From positions 384,813-448,812 of the forward strand of contig NZ_AOLI01000019.1 in assembly GCF_000336955.1 (NCBI RefSeq): a stretch of 64,000 nt of DNA. The letters are read 5' to 3'. A program made the position numbers and the translations under genes. This document shows, one piece after another, positions 1,865 through 42,451 of the stretch (the first letter of the stretch is position 1; the number at the start of each line of letters is the position of its first letter). The DNA is from Haloferax larsenii JCM 13917. GTDB taxonomy: Archaea > Halobacteriota > Halobacteria > Halobacteriales > Haloferacaceae. The notes below the pieces were generated by a model. That model searched no databases, had not been told where the DNA came from, and saw only the letters and a program-made list of their open reading frames with translations.

Positions 1865-1889
1865 TCGTCGGGTTCTCGAAGAAGCGAAA

Positions 1890-2002
1890 TGGGTTGGGGC
1901 AGATTTGAACTTCGTGAGACGGCTGTCTCACGTACTCACGCTCGCTTTGCTCGCGTGAACCTCACTCGCACCGCTTCGCGGTGCTCGCTGGTTCAAATCT
2001 TT
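1890..2002 (-). repeat. palindromic element with arms copied from the tRNA-Val 3' end
   Basis: In tRNA direction (minus strand) the element starts with an inverted, slightly decayed tRNA 3' end (2002-1984, containing GATTTGAACC). It continues through a core AGCGAGC...GCGAGTGAGGTTCAC with several small hairpins. It ends with a copy of the real tRNA-Val T-loop, T-stem and acceptor strand plus discriminator (1910-1890). That copy matches the 3' end of the tRNA-Val genes at 2063 and 2182. Bases flanking the copy (tcgaag...gaaat) also resemble those after the functional tRNA. The same layout occurs after tRNA-Gly near 41.1 kb. Confidence 0.7.
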
Positions 2003-2062
2003 TGCAACCATACACTTCGACATACGCTCCTCGCTTCGCTCGTCGGTAGTGTCGAAGAGAAA

Positions 2063-39701: not shown

Positions 39702-40544
39702 TCACTCCGTGAGTGTCAGGGAGGCGAGTGAGGCGAACATCGCTTCTTCAGTTCGCACCACGTCGCTCCCCTGTCGCGGAATCGTATTGAGCCAGAGGTC
39801 GAACCCCGGACCAACGGAGGGTTCGACGTCTGCGACATCCTCGGGAGTCATCCCCAGCATGTCCGGAAGCCCACGGCCCGGCGAACCGAACACGACGGTC
39901 ATACCGTCGGCGTCGGCGATACGGGCTGTCAGTTCCCCCAGTCGGGGGACCGAAAGCGGCTCACCATAGCGAGACGTGGCGATTCGCACGCCCGCATCCG
40001 GTCTGCCGAGAGCTTCCGTGAGGTCCATGCGGGATACGTCGAACCCCGGAAGGGGCTCGTCGACGATCCTCGCACGGACCGGTTCTCGCGAAGAGATCCT
40101 GACAGCGACGCGCTCTCCCTCTGTGGCGTCCATCCCGGGAGGGACGAACAGGGAGATCGGGTGTTGCATTCCGCAATTGACCCGAACGCGGTCGTCAGGT
40201 CCGACCTCGGTCACGATTCCTTCTCGCAACGCGGGCAACTCGTCAGAGTCGTCCGCGGTCGTAGACGAGACGAGAACGGGCGGCAGGATACCAGCGTACC
40301 GGAGTTCGTCACGCTTGCCCCAGACCTCTTTGCGAAGGTATGGGGGCGTCGCAGCGTACCGAAGTACGGTTTCGACGAACTCGCCGCCCCACTTGTTCTC
40401 GCCATCTTCGTCGGGGAAGATGACGAGTTCGTCCGCCCGGAAGACCGCCGCCGCGCGGGCGACGTAGCCGAGTTTGCGAGTTGCCTCGCGTTGATCTTCG
40501 GCTTCCCGGACGAGTGAGGACGGCACGAGTACGCTGAGTGTCAT
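39702..40544 (-). CDS. SPOUT-superfamily RNA methyltransferase (COG2106-like)
   Basis: The 280-residue putative S-adenosylmethionine-dependent RNA methyltransferase is related to enzymes proposed to methylate rRNA uridine N3. The SPOUT knot is visible in TVVFGSPGRGLPDMLG and the C-terminal DLWLNTIPRQGSDVVRTEEA. An OB-fold insert sits at about 110-165. The ATG at 40544 is chosen because upstream sequence lacks coding character. It leads the S10-type operon, as known in several archaea, so it may act on the ribosome made by its neighbours. Confidence 0.82.
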   Translation of the reverse strand: MTLSVLVPSSLVREAEDQREATRKLGYVARAAAVFRADELVIFPDEDGENKWGGEFVETVLRYAATPPYLRKEVWGKRDELRYAGILPPVLVSSTTADDSDELPALREGIVTEVGPDDRVRVNCGMQHPISLFVPPGMDATEGERVAVRISSREPVRARIVDEPLPGFDVSRMDLTEALGRPDAGVRIATSRYGEPLSVPRLGELTARIADADGMTVVFGSPGRGLPDMLGMTPEDVADVEPSVGPGFDLWLNTIPRQGSDVVRTEEAMFASLASLTLTE

Positions 40545-40916: not shown

Positions 40917-40987
40917 GCGTCGGTAGTGTAGTGGTATCACGTGACCTTGCCATGGTCACAACCTGGGTTCAAATCCCAGCCGACGCA
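40917..40987 (+). tRNA. tRNA-Gly (GCC), second copy
   Basis: Same body as the first copy, but acceptor GCGTCGG/CCGACGC. The change at two positions is compensated on the other strand, so both fold. The 3' end of this copy is the one duplicated in the two downstream palindromes. Confidence 0.96.
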
Positions 40988-41055
40988 CTTCTTCGGAACA
41001 CAAACCTCCGAGAGACCTCCGTGTCTCTTGGTTCTGTGAGGATAAATGTGAGACA

Positions 41056-41125
41056 CTGGGATTCTGAACTAGCGAGCGAACGCTAGTGAGCGAGTGAAGT
41101 TCACAATCCCAGCCGACGCACTTCT
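41056..41125 (+). repeat. tRNA-Gly-end palindromic element, copy 1
   Basis: The left arm CTGGGATTcTGAAC (41056-41069) is the reverse complement of the tRNA-Gly T-loop and T-stem. The core CTAGCGagcgaaCGCTAG then GTGAGCGAGTGAA follows. The right arm GTTCAcaATCCCAG runs on into CCGACGCACTTCT, so bases 41105-41125 repeat the tRNA 3' end and its flank (40972-40992) exactly. The layout equals that at tRNA-Val. Confidence 0.75.
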
Positions 41126-41192
41126 ACAACGAGCCTACCTTCCGAGCGACCGCTGTGCGTGTCGCTCGGACTGTGAGTCGCGAATGCGAGAA

Positions 41193-41266
41193 CTGGGATT
41201 TGAATCAGGGAGCGACGCGAACGAAGTGAGCAGAGCGACTGAGGTTCACAATCCCAGCCGACGAGT
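41193..41266 (+). repeat. tRNA-Gly-end palindromic element, copy 2
   Basis: The left arm CTGGGATTTGAA is the exact reverse complement of the functional T-arm segment. The core GGGAGCGACGCG...GTGAGC...GCGACTGAG ends in GTTCAcaATCCCAGCCGACG (to 41263), where homology to the tRNA 3' end stops. It lies four bases before the end of the DUF3179 gene. Confidence 0.75.
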
Positions 41267-41269
41267 ACG

Positions 41270-42451
41270 TCAGTTCGCATCTTCCCCATACACACTCGTT
41301 TCAGGATAGAACCCGGACCAGCCGAGCCAGAACATCGGTGGGTGGTCGTTCGCCCGGGTCAAGTCACGGGTCGCCTGCGGACCAGAGACTCCCGCACCGG
41401 TCGACCGCTGCCACCTCGTTGCACCCGCCGAGAATCGACTCGGTCCGTCTGCAGAGAAGTGCAACGTCTGCCTCTCACCCCGGCGCTCGTAGGCGACGAG
41501 CGTATTCCCCGGTGCCACGGTGACGACGACCGGAAGCCCGCCCACGTCGTCGTTGACGACACCCTCACGCCGAACAGTTTCGAACGGATAGGCGCGAGCA
41601 GCGTCGCCGTGAGCGACTCCGAGTACCAGCGACCGAGGATGTAGGCCATCCGAACCCGTGCCGAATCCGATGACTGACGGTGAGTCTCGACGATACTTCG
41701 GGATGAAGTAGTCGAACGTCGCCTCACGTCCGCGGATGGTGTTCGACTGCGGTGGTGGCAAGAGAACGTCCGTTTCTGGATGTTCAGCACTCCACGCTCC
41801 CCACGTCGTGAGCGACGAGGGTCGAATCGTGAGTTCGGTGCCAGTTAGCGGGCCGTTGATTGCTGTCGCGAGCAACTGCGACCACAGGCTCTCTGTTGCC
41901 CGGTCGTAGAGAACGAGGTCCGAGCGCCAGAGATAGCCCGAGACGCCGAAAGTGGTCGTAGACCCACCGACGACCCGGTCGACGACGACACTGCTCCCAC
42001 AGAGTACACAGTAGGTGACGGCGATTGGACCACCGAATGTGTCGTTGACAATCTCGTGCCAATCGAGTATTCGAAGTGGGTACGCCCGCGCTCTGTCCCC
42101 GTCTGTGAGGCCGATAACGGGTGCGTCGCCCGGGAGCGTGGTCGATTCTGCACGCGAGTCATCTGGGAGGGAAAGGCCGTCCCAGTCGTCCCCGAATACT
42201 GGGTCGACAATCGCCGGGATATGGTCGCGCGTTAGGGGAGAACGCATCTCGCGCCGGGAGACTGGAAGCGTGACCTCGCCACGCCGTGGAAGGCGACCAT
42301 CGGGTCGCGGGGACGACGTGTTGGAAGTCGTCGCGTTTCTCACGGAGGGCAGGTCGTCGCCGGTGACGCGACTCCCCGGAAGGGTGACGCACCCAGCGAG
42401 TCCAACGCCCGCAACTCCGGCGAGTCTGGCGAGGTAGTCCCGGCGGTCCAT
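41270..42451 (-). CDS. DUF3179 Tat lipoprotein
   Basis: The 393-residue exported protein begins MDRRDYLARLAGVAGVGLAG with a twin-arginine signal and lipobox LAGC. The body carries the DUF3179 hallmark AYPLRILDWHEIVNDTFGG followed by TYCVLCGSSVVVDR (two cysteines), and a second, weaker copy of the first element near AYPFETVRREGVVNDDVGG. The function is unknown; the CxxC and histidine suggest a metal or redox site outside the cell. Its 3' end abuts the tRNA-Gly palindromes. Confidence 0.85.
   Translation of the reverse strand: MDRRDYLARLAGVAGVGLAGCVTLPGSRVTGDDLPSVRNATTSNTSSPRPDGRLPRRGEVTLPVSRREMRSPLTRDHIPAIVDPVFGDDWDGLSLPDDSRAESTTLPGDAPVIGLTDGDRARAYPLRILDWHEIVNDTFGGPIAVTYCVLCGSSVVVDRVVGGSTTTFGVSGYLWRSDLVLYDRATESLWSQLLATAINGPLTGTELTIRPSSLTTWGAWSAEHPETDVLLPPPQSNTIRGREATFDYFIPKYRRDSPSVIGFGTGSDGLHPRSLVLGVAHGDAARAYPFETVRREGVVNDDVGGLPVVVTVAPGNTLVAYERRGERQTLHFSADGPSRFSAGATRWQRSTGAGVSGPQATRDLTRANDHPPMFWLGWSGFYPETSVYGEDAN

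Follow-up and report, generated by a model that had tools for sequence, protein, structure and literature searches.

Mosaic arrays of hairpin units bearing copies of the resident tRNA's 3' end behind tRNA genes of haloarchaea

The window analysed here, a 64,000-nucleotide stretch of the archaeon Haloferax larsenii JCM 13917 (contig NZ_AOLI01000019.1, positions 384,813 to 448,812), contains two tRNA-Gly(GCC) genes in succession, the second of which is followed by an array of short hairpin units bounded by copies of that tRNA's own 3' end. The order behind tRNA-Gly(GCC) #2 is T - A - T' - B - T - A - T' - B - T, that is, two units, where T (the tail) is the 3' half of the tRNA, comprising the T-loop, the acceptor strand and a run into the trailer, T' is T inverted, and A and B are hairpin modules: hairpin A sits between a tail and T', and hairpin B between T' and the next tail. 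This anatomy is firm. The features are listed below by position in the window, with matches to R1, a covariance model of the type I form of hairpin B, given in contig coordinates.

40834..40905, plus strand: tRNA-Gly(GCC) #1 (ARAGORN and Rfam RF00005); no unit separates it from #2
40917..40988, plus strand: tRNA-Gly(GCC) #2, origin of the tail T (ARAGORN and Rfam RF00005)
40989..41055, plus strand: module A1, trailer and hairpin CCGAGAGACCTCCGTGTCTCTTGG, with relatives behind Glu-TTC and Arg-GCG
41056..41069, plus strand: inverted arm T' of unit 1 (left arm of copy 1), CTGGGATTcTGAAC / CTGGGATTCTGAAC
41070..41098, plus strand: module B of unit 1, type I core with tandem G.A hairpin (R1 match G000:C19:425869-425924, E 8e-11)
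41099..41125, plus strand: right arm of unit 1, GTTCAC and then the direct tail copy AATCCCAGCCGACGCACTTCT
41126..41192, plus strand: module A2, hairpin CGAGCGACCGCTGTGCGTGTCGCTCG and GAATGCG (41182-41188), with relatives behind Glu-CTC and Glu-TTC
41193..41205, plus strand: inverted arm T' of unit 2, CTGGGATTTGAAT
41206..41243, plus strand: module B of unit 2, type I core CAGGGAGC...GCGACTGAG (R1 match G000:C19:426005-426069, E 4e-13)
41244..41263, plus strand: right arm of unit 2, GTTCAC and AATCCCAGCCGACG, 14 exact bases at 41250-41263
1886..2062, minus strand: tRNA-Val counterpart, with module A, T' AGATTTGAAC (2000-1991), type I B core, extra hairpins and a T copy (R1 match G000:C19:386767-386808)
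1910-1886, minus strand: T copy of the tRNA-Val element, GTTCAAATCTGCCCCAACCCATTTC

An earlier note on this DNA had described two serial elements behind the second tRNA-Gly, and both are present, with their left and right arms within 41056-41125 and 41193-41263. Their left arms are, as it had proposed, the reverse complement of the tRNA-Gly T-arm: in copy 2 the match to the 3' half of the T-arm is exact over 12 nt (41193-41204, CTGGGATTTGAA), and the arm of copy 1 differs from an exact reverse complement by one additional C. The right arms run into the acceptor end and flank over the lengths it had given, with 21 exact bases, reaching from the tRNA end into the trailer, in copy 1 (41105-41125) and 14 in copy 2, and the design is shared, again as described, with an element behind tRNA-Val on the minus strand (~2062-1886). 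Two features had gone unmentioned, namely the hairpin A that precedes each inverted arm at the Gly locus, and a weaker extension of the inverted arm toward the acceptor end and trailer, where GAATGCG in module A2 is complementary to CGCA(C)TTC of the tRNA end and trailer. The array occupies the whole gap up to a convergent open reading frame (42451-41270, stop at 41270), unit 2 ending 7 nt before the stop, and single-strand folding of the 282-nt Gly array region gives z = -4.35. In Gly, Phe, Arg and Thr units an additional C recurs at a constant position, within the stretch that one arm or both take from the T-loop (GTTCACAATC, GATTCTGAAC). Further hairpin modules (CACGCGAGCAAAGCGAGCGTG; GTGAGAC...GTCTCAC) lie between B and the tail copy at Val (window 1911-1960, minus strand), at His (L052) and at the Gly locus of Hfx. 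marinum.

The arms follow the sequence of the resident tRNA behind many tRNA genes and in most haloarchaea, far above permuted controls, and the earlier note's observation that the element takes on the local tRNA sequence is correct and understates the extent of the phenomenon. Alignment of tRNA flanks, a check that it had suggested, was carried out in three genomes (that of the window, the Haloferax genome G013, and G033 from a different family): a direct copy of the local tail (local alignment score of at least 12) is found in 54%, 45% and 51% of tRNA 3' flanks, respectively, as against 0.6%, 0.3% and 1.1% when tails are permuted onto the flanks of other tRNAs. In the genomes examined, about one tRNA gene in two has an array of this design behind it. 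Inverted tail copies likewise exceed the permuted level in the three genomes (p 4e-6, 1e-5 and 2e-3). With a 16-nt tail in the genome of the window, at least 13 positions match the tRNA's own flank in 28 of 53 cases, and in 0.9% when the tail is tried on flanks of tRNAs with other T-stems. Across 88 units collected by anchored extraction, the T-stem part of the left arm agrees with the local tRNA at a mean of 3.81 of 5 positions and with other tRNAs at 2.97 of 5 (p 3e-15), and the bases farther upstream of the left arm are complementary to the acceptor end and trailer of the resident tRNA (p 5e-8). Left arm, tRNA and right arm concur at the loop end in 70 of 72 cases, and eight bases further on in 33 of 63; the left arm is thus an inverted tail copy T', well preserved by the T-loop and decayed toward the acceptor.

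Where tRNA and right arm disagree, the left arm has the tRNA's version in 15 cases and that of the right arm in one, in units chosen for some left-arm match to the tRNA; the arms therefore derive from the tRNA and not from mutual pairing. Quasi-palindrome correction, or selection for arm pairing, is rejected as the main cause of local identity by this ratio and by the persistence of G.A mismatches. Reverse transcription of mature tRNA is also rejected as the source of the copies, because they run into the genomic trailer and lack CCA.

The hairpin modules, by contrast with the arms, are exchanged among loci. The arms do not vanish among close relatives: of 15 Haloferax genomes compared at the orthologous Gly locus, 13 have Gly-type arms, another holds a degenerate unit and the last has module A alone. 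Hfx. elongans is the closest of the relatives that a search with the neighbouring gene recovered. The locus draws on three A modules and about five B modules, in many combinations and in one or two units, A1 being paired with Ba, Bc or Bd, A2 with Ba, Bb or Bc, and A3 with Bd, with another B or with none; the module junctions fall at T' and T. Behind other tRNAs, comparison of the genome of the window with G013 reveals that the module or its presence often differs while the arms remain local. An identical 28-nt B core is common to Ser-CGA, Ser-TGA and Met, each with arms from its own tRNA, and modules (at least 20 nt) are shared by tRNAs with different T-stems in 53 B pairs and 11 A pairs, over up to 45 nt at 98%. 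Four identical 111-bp units follow tRNA-Lys(TTT) in one genome (G257, L246 650-1420), and then a fifth, mixed unit, with a Lys-like left arm and a right arm of Arg-tRNA type.

B modules are of at least two types, type I being CAGGGAGC...GCGACCGTGG or CAGCGAGC...GCGAGTGAGG, with tandem G.A mismatches whose flanking pairs co-vary across loci: 11 of 17 pairs are changed on both sides, and covariation as high as this is reached in none of 500 shuffles. Covariation of the outer arms arises largely because both arms are tRNA copies and should not be taken for selection for pairing; the change of a core pair between C-G and G-C (7 versus 21 units) is the better sign of structural constraint. The sense strand folds better than the antisense strand in 28 of 28 cases as RNA and in 27 of 28 as DNA. 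In 16.7 kb of tRNA 3' flank, tandem G.A hairpins number 18 on the tRNA strand and 2 on the opposite strand, the background rate elsewhere being 0.084 per kb and strand. A reading of the G.A pairs as a K-turn was dropped, as the 3-nt bulge geometry is absent from the loop. Downstream of Ser, Ala and Arg tRNAs (L213, L209 and L220 in G033; L081 and L188 in Haloferax), tail copies enclose a further type of insert, which has opposite-strand G.A hairpins (TCACTTC...) and the T-stem junction GGGACTCCC and falls outside the R1 counts.

Among 295 genomes of the phylum, R1 matches occur in 48 of 53 haloarchaeal genomes and in none of the 242 others; a more sensitive run on the five match-free haloarchaea yielded nothing or weak matches only, with none in G019. 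Type I units (R1, E<=0.01) number about 20-32 per genome. In four whole genomes, 71 of 80 R1 matches are found no more than 600 nt 3' of a tRNA, always on the tRNA strand (71:0). Seven of the remaining nine are visibly behind a partial tRNA or a tRNA-like 3' end, one weak match (L257) has no tRNA nearby, and the ninth (G020 C11:1520815) lay outside the inspected set. Units are about 110-150 bp long, and direct tail copies are spaced about 110-145 bp apart. As for the idea that copies gather at specific tRNAs, many tRNA types carry units, and to that extent it did not hold; it survives in that units are rare within tRNA clusters (1 of 16 internal gaps versus 78 of 147 other flanks, a scarcity due partly to the shortness of those gaps) and absent behind tRNAs that run directly into rRNA or ribosomal-protein genes. 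This pattern suggests either selection against units within transcription units or a role at the ends of such units. Searches of viral contigs and of phage and plasmid collections with exact patterns and blastn, which divergent copies would escape, returned no copies; in Rfam only tRNA exceeded the gathering score, and the units match no curated family.

At tRNA-Glu(TTC) there is a 3.6-kb island with a partial 3' tRNA copy (L097 8900-12720; G000:C19:695899-699720), flanked on both sides by nearly identical hairpin units and encoding a 578-aa protein that by eye resembles an SMC/Rad50-type ATPase; this mobile element seems to carry a unit beside its tRNA fragment. Elsewhere in the window, 40099-40198 on the minus strand matches the L4-Archaeoglobi ribosomal protein leader of Rfam (RF03135, E 2.5e-12), the match falling within a reading frame (40688-39702) upstream of an L3-like open reading frame.

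For the mechanism and function of the arrays, which we infer from these patterns, the best explanation is one that we hold with about even confidence: a mosaic array laid out like bacterial interspersed mosaic elements (BIMEs), whose modules are moved by recombination or template switching with breakpoints in shared T-loop sequence. Units would be copied and exchanged between tRNA loci, through recombination or replication template switching that breaks within the T-loop, at a stretch which almost every tRNA has (GGTTC, or GAACC when read from the opposite strand); copies would appear to adopt the local tRNA because the T-stem and acceptor outside the breakpoint would remain those of the resident tRNA, and unequal exchange between existing T copies would produce tandem runs. 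Conservation of the tandem-G.A hairpins on the tRNA strand suggests that a single-stranded form, as replicating DNA or as RNA, is used or recognised. The Y1 transposase (PF01797) was undetected in the unit-rich genomes G013 and G262, and the integron integrase (TIGR02249) was above cut-off in none of 12 genomes; the arrays are therefore not explained by the enzymes known from the two systems that resemble them most, and no known dedicated enzyme would be needed.

Several points weigh against this explanation. No exchange event was caught between near-identical strains, and module swapping alone leaves the first T' at a unit-free tRNA unexplained, for which fold-back copying is invoked. The 5-10 nt shared at the breakpoints are few for ordinary homologous recombination. 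A recognising factor, superfluous in a passive model, is suggested by the strict strand bias and the conserved G.A core. The 15:1 preference of the left arm for the tRNA is biased by the way in which the units were chosen; the bases beyond the stretch used for that choice agree with its trend.

It is possible, albeit tentatively so, that the units are instead cassettes moved by a site-specific recombination or transposition system that has escaped recognition and whose site is the tRNA T-loop or a single-stranded hairpin, each insertion restoring the tRNA tail downstream and serial insertions building up an array. The T-loop, a 7-bp loop within an inverted-repeat stem, has the layout of a tyrosine-recombinase core site, and mismatched pairs such as the G.A pairs of the conserved hairpin are common in hairpins that are read as single strands. 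Serial tail copies in constant phase, T-loop junctions at the Gly locus, the 71:0 strand bias near tRNAs and the units behind partial tRNAs left by integrated elements all fit such cassettes, whereas the enzyme searches above, the lack of matches in the viral, phage and plasmid sequences, the failure to track any candidate recombinase, and a unit length that is very short for double-stranded circles do not. A more specific version is doubtful: a class of non-coding cassettes, spread across the haloarchaea, integron-like and tRNA-based, with the T-loop as attachment site for a putative single-strand (hairpin) recombinase; if it were true, each cassette would have to end in the 3' half of the resident tRNA so that the tRNA survives.

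We consider it unlikely that the units are functional structured RNA or DNA elements that end tRNA transcription units (as back-up terminator, roadblock or processing signal) and are kept by selection, with their tRNA-like arms mere by-products of local duplication. The better folding of sense hairpins, the covariation of the type I core, the placement of units after the last tRNA of a cluster and their absence where a gene follows immediately would agree with such a role, but units are gained, lost and replaced quickly among species within one genus, the T copy is missing behind about half of the tRNAs, and changes in the arms within loci are uncompensated. Moreover, termination in Haloferax occurs mostly at T-stretches with a final C (PMC7237163), and the TTCTTC or TTTTC directly 3' of the tRNAs could terminate alone, such that transcription may end ahead of the units. 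Least probable, and very much so, is that the arrays are scars of serial integration and deletion of plasmids or viruses targeted to tRNAs, every tail copy being an attR: a classic island with a partial tRNA copy does exist at Glu-TTC, with units on both sides, and tail duplication is the hallmark of tRNA-integrating elements (PMC3119063, PMC8371274), yet scars predict neither the inverted tail T' within every unit, nor the conserved G.A hairpin core, nor modules common to different tRNAs, nor a near-constant unit length across families.

No earlier description of tRNA-tail mosaic arrays was found in the open-access literature searched, and one may exist elsewhere. What emerges is a family of repeats that most sampled haloarchaea possess and that accompanies about half of their tRNA genes, unusual in that every copy bears the sequence of its own tRNA. 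It makes testable both how a repeat can spread without losing local identity and what causes recombination hot spots at tRNA 3' flanks, and it matters for how archaeal tRNA fragments and att sites are annotated, and for the question of what ends or insulates tRNA transcription.

Among known systems, the attL/attR sites of integrated elements share with the arrays a direct duplicate of the tRNA 3' end downstream of an intact tRNA, and tail duplication by such elements is known (PMC8371274, PMC3119063). Here, however, the 110-145 bp between direct copies are filled by an inverted copy and conserved hairpins, without integrase genes, and the same hairpins recur behind other tRNAs, the Glu-TTC island being the exception to the short spacing; the inverted tail and the shared hairpins are not part of the known picture of tail duplication. 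Integrons and their attC sites are similar in having serial short units at a fixed site, hairpin-forming end repeats and an AAC...GTT palindrome, but the haloarchaeal units are gene-free and about 110-150 bp long, their arms track the tRNA, and no IntI scored above cut-off. Casposon or Cas1-type insertion also duplicates the tRNA 3' end as its target; the units differ in having no coding sequence and in containing an inverted tail copy. The MITE, PATE and SMR repeats of Haloquadratum walsbyi (PMC3119063) are likewise short repeats of haloarchaea that lack coding sequence and whose ends are palindromic or inverted; in contrast, the units lie almost exclusively behind tRNAs and have locus-specific arms. 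Bacterial BIMEs consist of alternating inverted repeats with mosaic linkers in strain-variable arrays (PMC2817692), and with them and their repetitive extragenic palindromic (REP) sequences the arrays share regularly spaced extragenic palindromic units, alternating orientation, exchangeable linkers, variable array length and imperfect hairpins. The arrays differ in that they sit behind tRNAs, that there is no genome-wide repeat consensus, the alternating repeat being the 3' end of the resident tRNA and thus varying by locus, that type I units number about 20-32 per genome as against more than 100 copies of REP, and that the RAYT (Y1/HUH) partner of REP has no detected PF01797 counterpart in G013 and G262. 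Because the REP consensus and the cognate RAYT both fail, we do not file the arrays as BIMEs; it is nonetheless to bacterial BIMEs that their layout is closest.
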